Shown piece by piece: positions 5,624 to 12,387 of a DNA stretch of 64,000 nt. Made by a program: the position numbers and the translations under genes. Positions within the stretch are counted from its first letter, which is position 1, and every line of letters starts with the position of its first letter. This stretch comes from Umboniibacter marinipuniceus (GTDB lineage: Bacteria; Pseudomonadota; Gammaproteobacteria; Pseudomonadales; DSM-25080): contig NZ_REFJ01000004.1 in NCBI RefSeq assembly GCF_003688415.1, positions 62,001-126,000 on the forward strand. Reading direction: 5' to 3'. The notes beneath the pieces are model-generated. The model searched no databases. It was not told the DNA's origin and worked only from the letters and a program-made list of their open reading frames with translations.

Positions 5624-6424
5624 CTAATCTTTGCACTTAGCCGCTTGCCAAAGGGTTTCCATTTCTTCGAGACTTGCCGATTTCAAAGAACGACCCTGAC
5701 CGCTCAAGCTCTCTTCGATAAAACTAAAGCGCTGATAAAATTTTTCATTGGTCCGACGTAGCGCGGCGTTTTGATCCAACTCGAGAGCCCTAACCAAATT
5801 AATAACGCTAAACAGGAGGTCACCAAGTTCCTCCTCAACAGCATCCATGTTGGCCGATGCTATCGCCTCTTCCACCTCAGCCAACTCTTCATGAACCTTG
5901 GCTAAGACCTGAAGACTATCAGGCCAATCGAAGCCGACCTTTGCCGCTTTCTTCTGCAGAGCCAACGCACGATCAGCAGGAGGTTGCGCTCGACTCACTG
6001 AATCTAAGTATCGGACAGTTGCACGAGGTTTTTCGCTCTGCTTGATCTTATTCCAGTTGTCGCGAATCTCCTCATCGCTAAGTACATGGCTTGGATCACG
6101 CGAGCTCTCTAGGGTTCCATCTGGAAAAACATGGGGATGGCGGCGAAGAAGCTTCGCCACAATGCCGTCAACCACCTCCGCAAAGCTGAAATGCTGATCT
6201 TCTTCGGCTAAGCGACTGTAAAACACTACCTGAAAGAGGAGATCGCCAAGCTCCTCACAGAGGTTTTCCATGTCGGCACGATCGATAGCATCAACCACTT
6301 CGTAGGTTTCTTCAATAGTATGAGGAACAACCGAAGCGTAGTCCTGCTTTATGTCCCACGGACACCCCGTTTGTGGGTCTCTCAGACGAGACATCAAGCC
6401 GATGAGATCCGCTAAGTTATGCAT
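5624..6424 (-). CDS. mazG: nucleoside triphosphate pyrophosphohydrolase MazG
   Basis: MazG hydrolyses (d)NTPs to monophosphates and pyrophosphate and modulates ppGpp-linked stress. Two tandem MazG domains are visible. The first, at roughly residues 10-110, has CPWDIKQDYASVVPHTIEET and ENLCEELGDLLFQVV. The second, around 165-240, has EELAEVEEAI and EEELGDLLFSVINL, with the E-E-x-x-D metal-binding pattern in each. The start at 6424 (MHNLADL) gives 266 aa, matching the family. It overlaps the relA stop as ATGCATAA, which suggests translational coupling. A longer reading to 6457 would lie inside relA. Confidence 0.95.
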   Translation of the reverse strand: MHNLADLIGLMSRLRDPQTGCPWDIKQDYASVVPHTIEETYEVVDAIDRADMENLCEELGDLLFQVVFYSRLAEEDQHFSFAEVVDGIVAKLLRRHPHVFPDGTLESSRDPSHVLSDEEIRDNWNKIKQSEKPRATVRYLDSVSRAQPPADRALALQKKAAKVGFDWPDSLQVLAKVHEELAEVEEAIASANMDAVEEELGDLLFSVINLVRALELDQNAALRRTNEKFYQRFSFIEESLSGQGRSLKSASLEEMETLWQAAKCKD

Positions 6425-8669
6425 TGGCGGACTTCTTTGAATCAATTCGCTGAGCACTGATAACGTTGGGCAGCTGGTTTAACACGCTAATGAGCTGAGC
6501 AAGCGAGTGGATACTATCCACTTCGCACTCAATACTCATATCTACGGTACTACTATCTCGATCTGATTTGGTGCTGATCGCAGTAACGTTGACACTCTCC
6601 AGATCCAGTACCGTAGTGACGTCTCGGAGCAACCCGGTTCTATCCCACGCCTCAATTTTTAGCTGCGCGACATAACGGTCTTCCTGTTGGCCGCCCCAAC
6701 TGAGCTTAATGATCCGCTCAGGTTCGTCCTGCATGAACTGTAGTGCCGTTGGGCAGTCGCTACTGTGAACGATAACAACCCTTCGGTTATCAACAAAGCC
6801 AGTGATATCAGTATCTGAACTCGGTGAACAGCAGCTACCAAACTCCATAGCAAGATTGCCCAAACCGTTGATGGCAGGCCCAGATTCCTGCTGGTGTTTA
6901 GACTGAACGGGCAACAATCCGTGACTTCCTGGACCATTCTCCAGTTCCAGTGCCGCACTAATCACATCCATTACGCCGAGGTCGCTGGCCCCAACGGCCG
7001 CATAAAGGTCATCTAGACTTTCGAAACCAAGCCGTTCATAGAGCGCTTGAAAGTCAATACTCATCAACCCAAGCCGCTTGAACTCTCGGTCCAACAACAT
7101 GCCGCCGTCGGCAACATTTTGATCGCGTGCTTGCTGGCGGAACCAGTGACTAATATTGGTTTTTGCCCGCGAGGTAACGATGTAGCCCAAGGAGTCGTCC
7201 AACCAAGAACGACTGGGCGCCTCTCTACGACCGGTGATAATTTCCACTTGATCACCGTTACGAAGGTTCTGATTTAGCGGTACAACTCTCCCATTGACCT
7301 TGGCGCCTCGGCAGCGATGACCAACTTCGGTATGAACTTGATAGGCAAAATCCAACGCGGTGGCCCCAAGAGGTAGATCTACAACATGGCCTTCGGGAGT
7401 AAAAACATAGACCCTGTCCTGAATAATCCCCACTCGAATCTGTTCAGCGAACGCCGCCCTACTGCCCTCTTCCTCATGCCAGCTTAAGACGTTGCGTAAC
7501 CAGTCCATCTTCTGCTCGTAGGCATTGGCTGACTTCTCCATGTCCGCACCTTTGTAACGCCAGTGCGCACAGACGCCAAACTCTGCTTCTTCGTGCATCT
7601 CATTGGTGCGAATCTGAACTTCAATTACCTTACCTTCTGGCCCCACTACAGCAGTGTGAAGTGATCGGTAACCATTCTCTTTTGGAGAGGCGATATAATC
7701 GTCGAATTCATGGGGAATGTTACGCCACAATGCATGAACCAAACCCAGCACCGAGTAGCAGTCTCGCGTAGAGTCAACCAAAATACGTACTGCTCGGATG
7801 TCATACACCTGAGAGAAAGCAATTTCTTTTTTGAGCATTTTCTTCCAGATGGAAAAAATATGTTTAGCTCTACCTTCAACCACGCCATGAATACCCGCTT
7901 CACCCAGTACGTTGTTCAAGCGGCCTATCATCATAGCGATGTATTCCTGCCTAGCAACGCGCTTTTCATCAAGCTGTTTGGCAATTTCTTTGTAGGTTTC
8001 GGCTTCTAGATAGCGAAAAGCAAGATCCTCTAGCTCCCATTTAAGATGACCAATACCTAAGCGATGGGCAAGCGGAGCGTAGACATCGCGTACTTCCCTC
8101 GCAACGCGAATTTGCTTCTCGGGATCATTAAATTTAACGGTTCGAATAGCGCAAGTTCGCTCAACAATCTTGATCAAGCCAACACGAACGTCATCGATCA
8201 TGGCCACCAGCATTTTGCGTACCGATTCAATCTGATCTGCCTCGGCTTGGCCAAACGCCCCAGACGAATCATTGCGGAGCGCGCCAATAACCGCCATACG
8301 TAAGACACCATCAATGAGATCTGCAACGGCGCTCCCGAACAGTTGCTTCACTTCGTTAAGATCCACTTTTTCTTCACGCACACAGCGGTAAATAGCCGCC
8401 GCAACCAGTGTTTCCACATCGCAATGGAGCTCAGCCAGCACCTCGACCATTTCTAGGCCAAATTCGAGGGTACTTACTTCGCCACCACCCCAAACATTAT
8501 TCTCAGCAATAGCTCGTTGTTCTACCGCGTCCGCAAACTCAATGGCGATGGTTAACTGACTCTGCTGCTCGGGCGTCAGTCCGAAACGATGGCGAAACTT
8601 TTCTGACCAAGCGACTAGGTCAATTCGCCCCTCAGGGCATAGCGGGTGATCATCGCGAACTTTTACCAT
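6417..8669 (-). CDS. relA: GTP pyrophosphokinase RelA (ppGpp synthetase I)
   Basis: Ribosome-associated (p)ppGpp synthetase that drives the stringent response, 750 aa. The N-terminal hydrolase-like domain (about 50-200) lacks the His-Asp pair needed for hydrolysis, as in monofunctional RelA. The synthetase domain follows, with YDIRAVRILVDS, SPKENGYRSLHTAV and EVQIRTNEMHEEAEFG. A TGS domain begins at DRVYVFTPEGHVVDLP. The zinc-finger-like region around FGSCCSPSSDTDITGFV and a C-terminal ACT domain complete the protein. It is 20 bases downstream of rlmD and overlaps mazG, the classical rlmD-relA-mazG order. Confidence 0.97.
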   Translation of the reverse strand: MVKVRDDHPLCPEGRIDLVAWSEKFRHRFGLTPEQQSQLTIAIEFADAVEQRAIAENNVWGGGEVSTLEFGLEMVEVLAELHCDVETLVAAAIYRCVREEKVDLNEVKQLFGSAVADLIDGVLRMAVIGALRNDSSGAFGQAEADQIESVRKMLVAMIDDVRVGLIKIVERTCAIRTVKFNDPEKQIRVAREVRDVYAPLAHRLGIGHLKWELEDLAFRYLEAETYKEIAKQLDEKRVARQEYIAMMIGRLNNVLGEAGIHGVVEGRAKHIFSIWKKMLKKEIAFSQVYDIRAVRILVDSTRDCYSVLGLVHALWRNIPHEFDDYIASPKENGYRSLHTAVVGPEGKVIEVQIRTNEMHEEAEFGVCAHWRYKGADMEKSANAYEQKMDWLRNVLSWHEEEGSRAAFAEQIRVGIIQDRVYVFTPEGHVVDLPLGATALDFAYQVHTEVGHRCRGAKVNGRVVPLNQNLRNGDQVEIITGRREAPSRSWLDDSLGYIVTSRAKTNISHWFRQQARDQNVADGGMLLDREFKRLGLMSIDFQALYERLGFESLDDLYAAVGASDLGVMDVISAALELENGPGSHGLLPVQSKHQQESGPAINGLGNLAMEFGSCCSPSSDTDITGFVDNRRVVIVHSSDCPTALQFMQDEPERIIKLSWGGQQEDRYVAQLKIEAWDRTGLLRDVTTVLDLESVNVTAISTKSDRDSSTVDMSIECEVDSIHSLAQLISVLNQLPNVISAQRIDSKKSANA

Positions 8670-8689: not shown

Positions 8690-9949
8690 CTAAGTGCGCG
8701 TTAACAACACGATAGTTTCCGAATGAACGGTATTCGGGAACATGTCAGCTAATGCGAGTCGTTCTATACTAAAGCCACCCGCCACCAATATGGTTAAGTC
8801 TCGAGCTAAAGTGCTCGTATCACACGATACGTAGACAAGACGTTCGACATTCTGGGCTTTAGACAACTGCTCACAGAGGTGTTGAGCGCCGGCCCTGGGC
8901 GGGTCTAATAGTGCTTTATTAAAATTATTTAAGGCTAACTGGGTACCAAAGAGGTCAACACTCTGGTAGCTAATGCGATCTGAGATATCTACCTCAACCG
9001 CTTCGGTGGCACGCCTCACCATCGCGTCGCTTCCTTCGAAGCCAACAACAGCGGCCCCTTTGACCGCCATTGGCACACTAAAGTTCCCCAACCCTGAAAA
9101 GAAATCGGCGACTGAGTCGCCCTCTTCGAGCGCCATCCATTCCAACGCCCGCGCAACCATCTCTTGATTAATCTTGTCATTGGCCTGCAAGAAGTCACCC
9201 GGATGGTAAGTTACCTCAGTGCCGTGACTGCTTACTATCCAGGGCGTATCCACTATCCATTGGCTTTCCAGCGAAATCTTGAGGGCCATGCTTGGCAGGG
9301 CTTGAAATTCGGCGAGCGCATCAGCTGACAATGGCTCGGTAAGCCTCAGGTGAACGCCTACTTTGTCATCCAGAGCGAGAAGATCAATATGCGAGACCGC
9401 ACGTTGTTGGGCCAAGAGTGGTTTGATCGCTTTAAGTGCGTTATTTAGCGACGGCCTCAAGTTGTAACAGTCATCAATATCAACGATTCGATTTGACTTA
9501 GCTTGACGAAACCCCACCCGTAACTTGCCGCCGCGATAACTCACCGCGAGCCGAGCACGTCGACGGTAGCCACTATCCTCAGCACTGATCACCTCAACGT
9601 CAGGCAAACTGTCCAGCGCCAAACCATGAAGAAAGCGAGTTAGCCTGTCGGCCTTGAAGGCCAATTGCCCTGCTGGCGCCACATGCTGAAGTTGGCAACC
9701 TCCGCAATCACTTGCATACCGACAAGGTGGCTTTCGCCGAGTCTCGCTGGCTTCAAGTACTTTTAATAACTTCGGCGGCTTCGCTGCCAGCACAGATATC
9801 CTTTCTCCCGGGATCGCTCCCGCGACAAAAAGGCGCTTCGAACCAACATGTAATGCCCCCTCGCCATGATCACCCCATGCCAAGACTTCAGTCTCTACAG
9901 GCTTAGGCTCCCGGTCACGACTTATTGACGAACGCCAGCGATTACTCAC
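8690..9949 (-). CDS. rlmD: 23S rRNA (uracil(1939)-C(5))-methyltransferase RlmD
   Basis: SAM-dependent enzyme that makes 5-methyluridine at position 1939 of 23S rRNA. The 419-residue protein has an N-terminal TRAM-like region and the iron-sulfur cysteine cluster PCRYASDCGGCQLQH. The methyltransferase core has DFFSGLGNFSVPMA, then DPPRAGAQ, and the catalytic cysteine lies in YVSCDTSTLARDL. The start is taken as the GTG at 9949. GGAG lies 6 bases upstream, and the GTG overlaps the cysM stop (GTGAGTAA). The ATG at 9994 lies well within cysM and would add 15 residues unlike the family. Confidence 0.94.
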   Translation of the reverse strand: MSNRWRSSISRDREPKPVETEVLAWGDHGEGALHVGSKRLFVAGAIPGERISVLAAKPPKLLKVLEASETRRKPPCRYASDCGGCQLQHVAPAGQLAFKADRLTRFLHGLALDSLPDVEVISAEDSGYRRRARLAVSYRGGKLRVGFRQAKSNRIVDIDDCYNLRPSLNNALKAIKPLLAQQRAVSHIDLLALDDKVGVHLRLTEPLSADALAEFQALPSMALKISLESQWIVDTPWIVSSHGTEVTYHPGDFLQANDKINQEMVARALEWMALEEGDSVADFFSGLGNFSVPMAVKGAAVVGFEGSDAMVRRATEAVEVDISDRISYQSVDLFGTQLALNNFNKALLDPPRAGAQHLCEQLSKAQNVERLVYVSCDTSTLARDLTILVAGGFSIERLALADMFPNTVHSETIVLLTRT

Positions 9950-10829
9950 TAAAGACTCCAGAAGACAGGTAGCGATCACCACGATCGCAAACAATGGCTA
10001 CAATCGTGGCATTTTCCACGCTTTTTGCCAGTTCGAGTGCAGCGAACACTGACCCTCCCGATGAAACACCTGCAAAAATACCCTCTTCGCGAGCTAGTCG
10101 GCGCATGGTATCTTCCGCATCCTTCTGGCGAATATCCATGACTCGATCCACTCGTTTACTGTCGAAGATCGCCGGCAGGTAGGCTTTAGGCCAGCGACGT
10201 ATCCCCGGTATCTGATCGCCATCTACCGGTTGTAGACCCACGATTTGTATGGCGGAGTTTTGACCTTTCAAATACTCAGAGACACCCATAATGGTCCCAG
10301 TAGTGCCCATAGATGAAACAAAATGAGTGATTTCACCCTTCGTCTGCTGCCAAATCTCTGGCCCCGTACCATGGATATGAGCGCGAGGATTGTACAGGTT
10401 AGCGAATTGATTAAGTACAATACCCTCACCGCGAGCCGCCATTGCGTCGGCTAAGTCTCGAGCACCTTCCATACCCTCTTGCGCTGAGACCAAAATAAGC
10501 TCTGCGCCATAGGCTCTCATCGCATCCTTACGCTCGGTTGTAGCGTTATCAGGCATAATCAAACACATTTTATAGCCTTTAATGGCCGCCGCCATTGCTA
10601 GCGCAATCCCGGTGTTGCCACTAGTTGCCTCAATCAACCTATCACCTGGTTGAATATGACCGTCTTCCTCAGCGCCTTGGATCATATTTAATGCGGGGCG
10701 ATCCTTCACCGAACCGGCAGGATTATTCCCTTCGAGCTTTAGCAAAATGGTGTTACTGGTGGTATTCATCCGCTGCAATCGGACCAATGGCGTATTGCCA
10801 ACACAGTCTTCGATAGTGGGGTAAGACAT
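9942..10829 (-). CDS. cysM: cysteine synthase B (O-acetylserine sulfhydrylase, CysM)
   Basis: PLP-dependent enzyme forming cysteine from O-acetylserine and sulfide or thiosulfate. The 295-residue length fits CysM. The PLP lysine lies in NPAGSVKDRPAL near residues 35-46, the substrate loop is EATSGNTGIALA, the phosphate-binding motif is SSMGTTGTIMG, and the late active-site motif is FAGVSSGG. A cytoplasmic protein. It heads the cysM-rlmD-relA-mazG operon known from Pseudomonas-like genomes. The 166-base gap to the divergent Hpt gene should carry promoters for both directions. Confidence 0.96.
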   Translation of the reverse strand: MSYPTIEDCVGNTPLVRLQRMNTTSNTILLKLEGNNPAGSVKDRPALNMIQGAEEDGHIQPGDRLIEATSGNTGIALAMAAAIKGYKMCLIMPDNATTERKDAMRAYGAELILVSAQEGMEGARDLADAMAARGEGIVLNQFANLYNPRAHIHGTGPEIWQQTKGEITHFVSSMGTTGTIMGVSEYLKGQNSAIQIVGLQPVDGDQIPGIRRWPKAYLPAIFDSKRVDRVMDIRQKDAEDTMRRLAREEGIFAGVSSGGSVFAALELAKSVENATIVAIVCDRGDRYLSSGVFSE

Positions 10830-10995
10830 AAAGCTTCCTTGAACAAAGGCAATTTAAAATGGCATTACAACTAAGGTATCTATTTTAGATGAGCCGATGA
10901 CAAAGACCTAGCTGCAAAATTCCCACAGTGTATTCCTCACTTGCCTCAATGCCAACTTTCGGAATATGCTAAACAACAGAAAGAAGGAAACGAGA

Positions 10996-11343
10996 ATGGC
11001 AATAGCACTAGAGATCAACACCTCCCATTTTAAAGACATTTGCTGCCAACAGGCCGACATTGCTTCAAGCCTTCTCTCTCAGATTCGCAATGACCTCCCC
11101 GAAATCTCAGCGGCACTCAACTCAAACAACCAGGACGAAATACTATTTGCCGTACACCGGCTTCTGGGAATCGGTCGCTACTGTGGAATTGGACAGCTTG
11201 TTGTTTTGAGTCAACAACTTGAATCCGAGGGAATGCGAGGGACGCTCAATCACGCTAAACTGAAGGAGTTAAAAAAATTAAGTCACCAGCTAAGTCAGTG
11301 GCTGGATGAATCAGAAGCCTGGGTGGCTAACAACTTTCGATAG
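10996..11343 (+). CDS. stand-alone histidine phosphotransfer (Hpt) domain protein, BarA/GacS-like
   Basis: A 115-residue all-helical protein consisting of little more than one Hpt domain. The phosphoacceptor is probably His54 in AVHRLLGIGRYCGIGQL. This aligns well with the Hpt segment at the C-terminus of BarA/GacS hybrid kinases (H-x-L-H-G...Y-C-G-V/Y-S-G-V). The start at 10996 is preceded by AAGGA at good spacing, and an upstream in-frame ATG at 10966 is not. It is divergent from cysM, which is where gacS/barA often stands in relatives. No kinase, receiver or HAMP sequence is next to it. Expected role is phosphorelay between a hybrid kinase and a response regulator encoded elsewhere. The function is inferred. 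Confidence 0.75.
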   Translation: MAIALEINTSHFKDICCQQADIASSLLSQIRNDLPEISAALNSNNQDEILFAVHRLLGIGRYCGIGQLVVLSQQLESEGMRGTLNHAKLKELKKLSHQLSQWLDESEAWVANNFR

Positions 11344-11365: not shown

Positions 11366-11848
11366 CTATTGCTCGCCCTGCGCTAACCACTCTTCAAGGC
11401 TAATATCACTACTAGCGTCCACGCGAACCAATTCAGACTCTTGGCCACGCAGCCAACCAATCCCGTCACTCGCTCTAGGCGCATGAACCACTAGGCCATC
11501 GCCTTGCAACTCACGGAAGCTTGATGCCCCATCCTGACTCAGCTGCATCTTGTAAGCATAGCAAAGCGAATCACCACTCCACGAGTGATTAACAATGGTC
11601 TGAGTTTCAACCACTTCCATTGTTAAGCGTTGAGTGACACCCGTTGACTGCTGCCTAGCAGACAGTTCAAGTTCACCGTTAATGGGCTCTGAGCTAATGT
11701 AATAGAGTCGTACTTCTTCAGGCTGAGCCGCGATGGTCTCGGTATCACTCCAAATCGCTAGCGGACTCCAATCAAAGGAGCTCACAGATGAGCAAGCGCT
11801 CAGTATAACGATAGCGACTAGAACAGATATTCTATTGATGAAACTCAT
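11366..11848 (-). CDS. predicted lipoprotein of unknown function
   Basis: A 160-residue protein with a lipoprotein signal. After the start MSFINRISVL a hydrophobic stretch runs to the lipobox LSAC near residue 19, predicting a diacylated cysteine and periplasmic or outer-membrane location. The mature part looks like a beta-rich domain that includes VRLYYISSEP and an acidic C-terminus ending in ISLEEWLAQGEQ. The start at 11848 has GAGG 5 bases upstream. I do not recognise a family. It is convergent with the Hpt gene, leaving 22 bases between stops, and has its own promoter region at 11849-11976. Confidence 0.7.
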   Translation of the reverse strand: MSFINRISVLVAIVILSACSSVSSFDWSPLAIWSDTETIAAQPEEVRLYYISSEPINGELELSARQQSTGVTQRLTMEVVETQTIVNHSWSGDSLCYAYKMQLSQDGASSFRELQGDGLVVHAPRASDGIGWLRGQESELVRVDASSDISLEEWLAQGEQ

Positions 11849-11976
11849 GGTTGCCTCGGGCCTGTGGCGGAACTGCGTATCGATACGCACTATTATTATT
11901 TAATTATGAATAGTATTCTGTAACGCTTTTCGCAAAAGTACAAGGTCGAACTGGCCGCAATGAGACACACGAAACT

Positions 11977-12387
11977 ATGCAAGAAATAATCGATGAACTA
12001 TTGAGTGTTGCCGACGACGTGGCCTACCCACTGGACGAACCTGATTTCGATGACATTGTCCGAGTAGAAGAAGCTATCTTACTGCCTCTTTCGCGCAGCC
12101 TGAAAACCTTCTTAGAGGAATGTTCTCACATTACGCATGGACGCTATGAGCCTGTTACGGTGGCCGATGAGCAGTCACACACCTATCTAGCAGAAGTCAC
12201 AGCAAAAGCGTGGTCGGAAGGTATTCCGAGAGATTGCGTCCCCCTATGTGAGCATGGCGCGAATCTGTTTGTCGTCACACTAGATGATGAAGTCGCACTC
12301 TACGAAAATGGCGAGCTATCTGACAAGACATGGCCCAGCATTTGGCACTGGGTAGAAGAAGTGTGGATTCGTGATTCGGAGTATTAA
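11977..12387 (+). CDS. SMI1/KNR4-like family protein
   Basis: A 136-residue acidic cytoplasmic protein. The pattern of an N-terminal helix, AILLPLSRSLKTFLEECS, a central strand region ending CEHGANLFVVTLDDEVALYENG, and a C-terminal WPSIWHWVEEVWI resembles the SMI1/KNR4 (SUKH) fold. Bacterial members are often immunity proteins, but many solitary ones have no known partner. No toxin gene is visible next to it. It precedes a homocysteine methyltransferase by 2 bases and is probably co-transcribed with it. The family call is by pattern and moderately secure. The function is unknown. Confidence 0.65.
   Translation: MQEIIDELLSVADDVAYPLDEPDFDDIVRVEEAILLPLSRSLKTFLEECSHITHGRYEPVTVADEQSHTYLAEVTAKAWSEGIPRDCVPLCEHGANLFVVTLDDEVALYENGELSDKTWPSIWHWVEEVWIRDSEY

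Follow-up and report, generated by a model that had tools for sequence, protein, structure and literature searches.

The 64,000-nucleotide stretch of Umboniibacter marinipuniceus DNA analyzed here (contig NZ_REFJ01000004.1, positions 62,001 to 126,000; hereafter the window) encodes a stand-alone Hpt protein of the BarA/GacS type at positions 10996..11343 (+), divergent from the cysteine synthase gene cysM. This gene, hpt, specifies 115 residues with a predicted phospho-acceptor at His54, as indicated by the Pfam Hpt family, the BarA model and its conservation in a second species. Judging from the genome sequence, the BarA/GacS sensor kinase itself appears to be gone. We propose, with moderate confidence, that the kinase was lost from the cysM-linked locus and that its Hpt was retained as a free protein, which receives phosphate in trans from hybrid kinases without an Hpt of their own and relays it to the response regulator GacA. 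By analogy with an engineered construct of Pseudomonas aeruginosa, the stand-alone Hpt probably still passes phosphate to GacA; its role in GacA signaling, and with it every phosphotransfer step outlined below, is one that we infer. The comparisons draw mainly on the host genome (G000, 99.4% complete) and on two other members of the same genus, G001 and G002.

In the list of open reading frames (ORFs), hpt runs over 10966..11343 (+) and would encode 125 residues from an ATG at 10966. The first-pass annotation had placed the start at 10996, which gives 115 residues, and in a profile scan of the whole order the G000 match sits in a 143-residue frame. The start at 10996 is preferred because the G002 counterpart is a 115-residue ORF (L036:1495-1842) whose start aligns with it, because a Shine-Dalgarno-like AAGGA read from the sequence at 10984..10988 (+), 7 nt 5' of this ATG, is kept in G002, and because the upstream ATG is closed in G002 by an in-frame TAG, as read from the alignment of the two genomes.

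The protein consists essentially of one Hpt domain, as first annotated. It matches Pfam Hpt (PF01627) with an E value of 5.9e-9 and 36.5 bits, above the gathering cut-off of 24.6, and His54, which lies within VHRLLGIGRYCGIGQL, aligns with the invariant histidine of BarA Hpts. The AlphaFold2 model, with a mean pLDDT of 83.6, is a helical bundle composed of helices 9-18, 20-41, 46-63, 66-80 and 86-113, the third of which carries His54 as the conserved histidine of the HxxxG motif. Structural similarity search of the PDB using Foldseek returned Hpt domains as the top folds at marginal E values (best 3.1e-3, none at or below 1e-3), including the Hpt of a Shewanella hybrid kinase, P. aeruginosa HptB at rank 4 and, below HptB, the Hpt of E. 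coli BarA. A BarA combines sCache_4, HAMP, H1, D1 and H2 in one protein, an architecture that the 115-residue ORF does not have; the ORF is a single Hpt domain, the descendant of one BarA domain, and not a BarA.

Sequence searches and profiles agree in relating this domain to the C-terminal Hpt of BarA/GacS. At E<=0.01, NCBIfam gave just two models: that of BarA, matched with E 2.8e-6 over positions 821-911 of its 920, and that of LetS, with E 0.0044. Neither score comes near the cut-off for the whole protein, which is natural for a query of one domain. Among 177,635 PDB sequences, the only Hpt domains matched at E<=1 were 3myf, a Shewanella sensor Hpt (E 1.3e-5), and 3iqt of E. coli BarA (E 0.064), the third match being a non-Hpt enzyme (E 0.24). 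A search of 56 genomes, the host's own included, matched 14 of them: the protein itself, its G002 copy and 12 others that lie in frames of 920-997 residues. These 12 matches outside the genus are BarA orthologues, as the G021 protein aligns over nearly its full length with the other 11 (with one of them only from residue 75). A hidden Markov model (HMM) of 14 BarA Hpts gave 45.2 bits for the window protein and 34.2 for the G002 copy, and the highest score among the other tested Hpts of the genus was 21.4. Since this very Hpt had first led to the genomes behind 11 of the 14 rows, the HMM was repeated with 25 BarA Hpts found via cysM, which gave 40.6 bits, 34.6 bits and at most 20.6 bits, respectively. 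Both BarA profiles, NCBIfam and the PDB search place the protein nearer to the Hpts of BarA than to other Hpts, and a profile of the second free Hpt of the genus, described below, scores it at -0.3 bits. Across the order, a BarA-type Hpt profile at E<=1e-6 matched 257 of 391 genomes; among the 150 matches listed, which do not include that of G002, 149 lie in frames of 736-1444 residues and one, that of G000, in a frame of 143 residues.

The phylogeny gave a more divided answer. A first Hpt tree did not resolve, with the ChpA rows on very long branches. In a second tree, from which ChpA_pos9, ChpA_pos1162 and 7 of the 21 BarA rows had been dropped, the protein grouped with BarA Hpts (support 88/93), yet a grouping with unrelated Hpts was not rejected (p-AU 0.363), which counts against the origin proposed here. 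The annotated match to BarA/GacS was thus borne out by the NCBIfam, PDB and HMM comparisons and left undecided by the tree that had been called for; because the alternative grouping stands unrejected, the BarA origin is drawn from synteny and profile scores and not from the tree. The same p-AU value is compatible with an unrelated free Hpt gene of the HptB kind lying beside cysM by coincidence, as are the identity of only 18-25% to BarA Hpts and the rank of P. aeruginosa HptB above E. coli BarA in the fold search. We regard this coincidence as quite improbable, given that the profile scores, the PDB and NCBIfam single out BarA, that the profile of the second free Hpt does not recognize the protein, and that the gene sits where relatives carry barA.

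That position was examined in 80 named cysM loci, taken as the best of 579; one of them is probably G001's own contig. BarA is adjacent to cysM and divergent from it in 16 of the 80 (in one case as a 521-residue partial frame) and lies further upstream within 6 kb in another 36, giving 52 of 80 within 6 kb in total; the remaining 28 loci showed no BarA within the stretch examined. When the Hpt was compared with the ORFs of these 80 loci, all 45 ORFs matched at E<=1 were BarA, and no short ORF was matched. The place of hpt at cysM is that of BarA in relatives, and the early observation that it diverges from cysM where relatives often carry the full kinase is upheld by named relatives that carry a full BarA beside cysM or a few kb from it. 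In the window, cysM (9942..10829, -) is recognized as cysteine synthase B above cut-off by PRK11761/TIGR01138 of NCBIfam and serves as the syntenic anchor. The 166-bp spacer from which cysM and hpt diverge (10830..10995) is 77% identical to that of G002 over 166 columns and 83% identical over the last 100 bp, compared to 45% at the third codon positions of hpt. It contains a putative promoter, TTGCCT(10941)-18-TATGCT(10965), with 8/12 matches and conserved in G002 (TTGCGT there), which was read by eye and not reported by the promoter scan.

The G002 gene lies at the same place, with the same neighbors, and its product shares 68% amino-acid identity with the window protein, codon positions 1, 2 and 3 being identical at 75%, 85% and 45%. 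This conservation and codon-position pattern exclude a chance ORF. With dN at 0.22, dS beyond estimation and the third position at 45% against a protein identity of 68%, hpt is under purifying selection and not in decay. Saturation affected the dS estimates more widely: by two methods, dS was estimable by neither for hpt and for the second free Hpt gene (hpt2), and by one only for the lipoprotein-like ORF and gacA. At the corresponding locus of G001, otherwise similar, hpt is missing and cysM is followed directly by the lipoprotein-like ORF. This absence is what a functionless, decaying remnant of barA might lead one to expect, but an intact ORF with a ribosome-binding-site-like motif in two species, saturated third codon positions, and His54 kept with its surrounding motif in both G000 and G002 make decay hardly credible.

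The first-pass annotation had offered two alternatives, that the kinase was lost and the Hpt kept, or that the Hpt had become a separate phosphorelay partner; both appear to be true. No BarA/GacS kinase was found in G000. The sCache_4 sensor domain was not found in G000, G001 or G002; at this threshold it was likewise unmatched in five other GacA-positive genomes at least 90% complete (G005, G017, G019, G034 and G037), so that its absence is by itself a weak sign of kinase loss. The only G000 frame with both HisKA and Hpt matches is a 1176-residue kinase with SBP_bac_3 sensors, which is not BarA. About 2 kb from the gene of this kinase, a receiver-plus-HTH regulator gene (L028:2900-3260, -) is frame-disrupted at a short tandem duplication in G000 and open in G002; the disruption could be an assembly error.

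Four hybrid kinases of G000 that lack an Hpt were profiled, of 777, 820, 884 and 449 residues; frames of 516 and 546 residues also have both HisKA and receiver matches. The 777-residue kinase is a seven-transmembrane (7TM) protein of LadS architecture, with DISMED2 just below its cut-off. The 820-residue kinase has a DAHL sensor and is the nearest of the four to the BarA kinase core, with 437 bits over model positions 236-792, a score far below the BarA cut-off of 890; it has neither the BarA sensor nor an Hpt. The 449-residue kinase adjoins an H-NOX protein. A pair of this kind, a haem-NO-binding H-NOX protein and a hybrid kinase without Hpt, occupies L029:3801-5691 (-).

The second free Hpt differs from the window protein and is encoded at L030:7987-8325 (-) (about 444986-445324 of G000:C3), with copies in G002 (L152:9988-10326, 77% identity to that of G000) and G001 (L145:1636-1968, 65%). 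In G000 it directly adjoins the 777-residue kinase and lies near the 884-residue kinase; in G002 it is next to the latter, and no counterpart of the former is present at that place. The G001 region L145:1636-10966 holds, within about 10 kb, an H-NOX/kinase pair, the second free Hpt and ORFs of 638, 905 and 734 residues, the first two of which resemble hybrid kinases.

The search for a GacA/UvrY partner, also suggested at first pass, located a divergent GacA at L031:3652-4296 of G000, before ORFs read as uvrC and pgsA. Its best model is UvrY/SirA/GacA with 182.6 bits, below the cut-off of 280, and it keeps D7, D8, D53 and K103, that is, the acidic pocket, Asp53 and Lys103. Co-occurrence of the two proteins was analyzed in 49 genomes at least 90% complete, representing 41 family codes, with thresholds of E<=1e-40 for GacA, for which the query was itself divergent, and E<=1e-6 for the BarA-type Hpt. 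Both were present in 29 genomes, GacA alone in none, the Hpt alone in 6 and neither in 14. Every GacA-positive genome (29/29) therefore carries a BarA-type Hpt, with a Fisher probability of 5.7e-8, or 1.1e-7 without this genus, uncorrected for kinship. An apparent joint loss of hpt and gacA in G001 was considered and rejected: hpt is absent and a GacA search at E<=1e-40 gave no match, but the contig carrying uvrC has its match from base 8 onward, so that the gacA place is missing from the assembly and the apparent loss of GacA is unusable as evidence. A CsrA-like protein, as expected for a Gac/Rsm pathway, is present in all three members of the genus; csrA of G000 (L028:4927-5127, -) was recognized by similarity to a G002 ORF identified as CsrA and not by comparison with a family library. 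In G000, csrA lies between the gene of a receiver-kinase protein and that of the 1176-residue H1-D1-H2 kinase, and in G002 it lies beside the latter.

A precedent for a relay of this kind comes from P. aeruginosa. According to PMC4866733, the 7TM hybrid kinase LadS signals along H1-D1-GacS H2-GacA, and GacS H2 alone carries the LadS signal in a gacS mutant, which its His-to-Gln form does not. Taking the window protein as this GacS-H2 construct's counterpart in nature, we infer a relay from hybrid kinase D1 to His54 and on to Asp53 of GacA. Synteny and sequence suggest that the protein would represent the C-terminal Hpt (H2) of an ancestral BarA/GacS, whose sensor, H1 and D1 would have been deleted from the cysM-linked locus while the Hpt would have remained, equipped with start signals of its own. 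A hybrid kinase with a receiver and without an Hpt would then autophosphorylate and pass phosphate from H1 to D1; D1 would hand it to His54 of the free Hpt, and His54 to Asp53 of the retained GacA, acting on the CsrA branch. Candidate feeders in G000 are the 777-residue 7TM kinase of LadS architecture, the 449-residue H-NOX-linked kinase, the 884-residue kinase and the 820-residue DAHL-sensor kinase.

A bolder extension, which we put forward only tentatively, is a sensor-less Gac pathway centered on the Hpt. Hybrid kinases of several unrelated kinds, among them the 7TM LadS type and the NO-linked H-NOX kinase, might all supply phosphate to a free GacS-H2, which would pass it to a co-evolved GacA changed at two helix α1 positions that are at least 95% conserved in 25 GacA. 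The GacA alignment drew on 30 of 33 matched loci, and three of these 30 (L071, L072 and L079) were dropped because the motif filter did not find their ORF. Arg18 and Asp22 of the other genomes are replaced by Tyr and by Ser or Ala, respectively, in this genus; from other relays, we take positions 18 and 22 to lie in receiver helix α1, facing the Hpt.

Several observations weigh against a retained relay to GacA. No hybrid kinase strictly co-occurs with hpt: the 449-residue (H-NOX) and 884-residue kinases are found in all three members of the genus, including G001, which lacks hpt, and G002 shows no HisKA match in a frame as large as the 777- and 820-residue kinases. The second free Hpt may serve some or all of these hybrid kinases instead. 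The G000 GacA is fast-evolving, with a mean identity of 42% to 25 others that share 62% among themselves, and deviates at 13 of the 63 columns that are at least 95% conserved in those 25. At the thresholds applied, a BarA-type Hpt was matched but GacA was not in six of the 49 genomes (three weak matches). GacA boxes, counted as sites versus control with one mismatch, are not clearly enriched (G000 3/3, G002 6/3, G001 4/6), and an Rfam scan of 135 kb found no Rsm/Csr small RNA (sRNA). A GacA-box site common to G000 and G002 was followed as an sRNA lead and rejected, since it lies just before a transporter-like ORF. Repeated short elements with GTACCCGACCCC occur on both strands at about 1050-1500 of L275 in G002, before a transporter-like gene, and G000 has a different repeat there.

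Part of this evidence would suit a BarA-derived Hpt whose present partner is a different response regulator, or which belongs to a general pool of Hpts in the manner of HptB, with GacA driven otherwise. The unusually divergent GacA, the lack of clear GacA-box enrichment and the many other receivers of G000, with 26 matches to Response_reg at E<=0.01, are in its favor. We nevertheless hold it to be rather unlikely: GacA-positive genomes always have a BarA-type Hpt (29/29), with BarA gone, nothing of the known GacA donor was found except the Hpt, and in P. aeruginosa LadS uses GacS H2 and none of HptA, HptB and HptC (PMC4866733). A further alternative is that the Hpt acts mainly as a phosphate drain, GacA being charged otherwise, for instance by acetyl phosphate, and the Hpt removing phosphate with a receiver partner by back-transfer. 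The want of a strictly co-occurring kinase would fit such a drain, yet nothing found requires it and the genome has hybrid kinases that could feed the Hpt, which makes it unlikely. Altogether, we continue to favor an Hpt retained from a lost BarA/GacS as a relay to GacA.

Downstream of cysM lie an rlmD/rumA-like 23S rRNA methyltransferase gene (8690..9994, -; TIGR00479 above cut-off) and a relA-like (p)ppGpp synthetase gene (6417..8669, -; Pfam and NCBIfam), both used as anchors. On the far side of hpt is the lipoprotein-like ORF of 174 residues (11366..11890, -), which has no Pfam match and has a similar ORF at that place in G002 and G001. Beyond it, a SUKH_5 family protein is encoded at 11977-12387 (+) of the window (E 2.1e-33), again with a similar ORF there in both genomes. 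SUKH_5 is a family often linked to immunity proteins; no evident toxin gene was noticed beside this ORF, though no search aimed at toxins was made.

Few global switches of gammaproteobacteria have been studied as much as GacS/GacA, in which sensor and regulator are usually taken to form a fixed pair. If a lineage has retained nothing of the sensor but its final relay domain, this would suggest that the indispensable partner of GacA is the Hpt and not the GacS kinase. No description of a natural stand-alone GacS/BarA Hpt was found by title or abstract start in the open-licence PMC literature. Like HptA, HptB and HptC of P. aeruginosa and the second free Hpt of the genus, the window protein is a single-domain phosphotransfer protein, and HptB ranks fourth in its fold search; it differs from HptB, which gave no sequence match at E<=1 in the PDB search, and from the second free Hpt in profile score and genomic place. 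With BarA/GacS (BarA/UvrY, GacS/GacA, Csr/Rsm) it shares the sequence affinity of the Hpt, the cysM-linked position, a GacA/UvrY before uvrC, and CsrA. Here, by contrast, the Hpt is a free protein of 115 residues without sensor, H1 and D1, and GacA is divergent; compared to the Csr/Rsm pathway, no sRNA was found in the regions scanned and GacA boxes show no clear enrichment. A phosphorelay regulator left with nothing of its vanished sensor but the relay domain would be a variant of the known BarA/GacS system. The closest parallel is the engineered GacS-H2 of P. aeruginosa, an isolated GacS Hpt that, like the window protein, would be expected to relay the phosphate of a hybrid kinase in trans to GacA. 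That construct is a laboratory one placed in a gacS mutant and fed by LadS (PMC4866733), whereas the Hpt described here occurs naturally in two species and has candidate feeders only, a kinase of LadS architecture among them in G000. If our interpretation is right, hpt would be the natural counterpart of GacS-H2 and would offer a clean system for studying how phosphorelays are rewired through domain loss.
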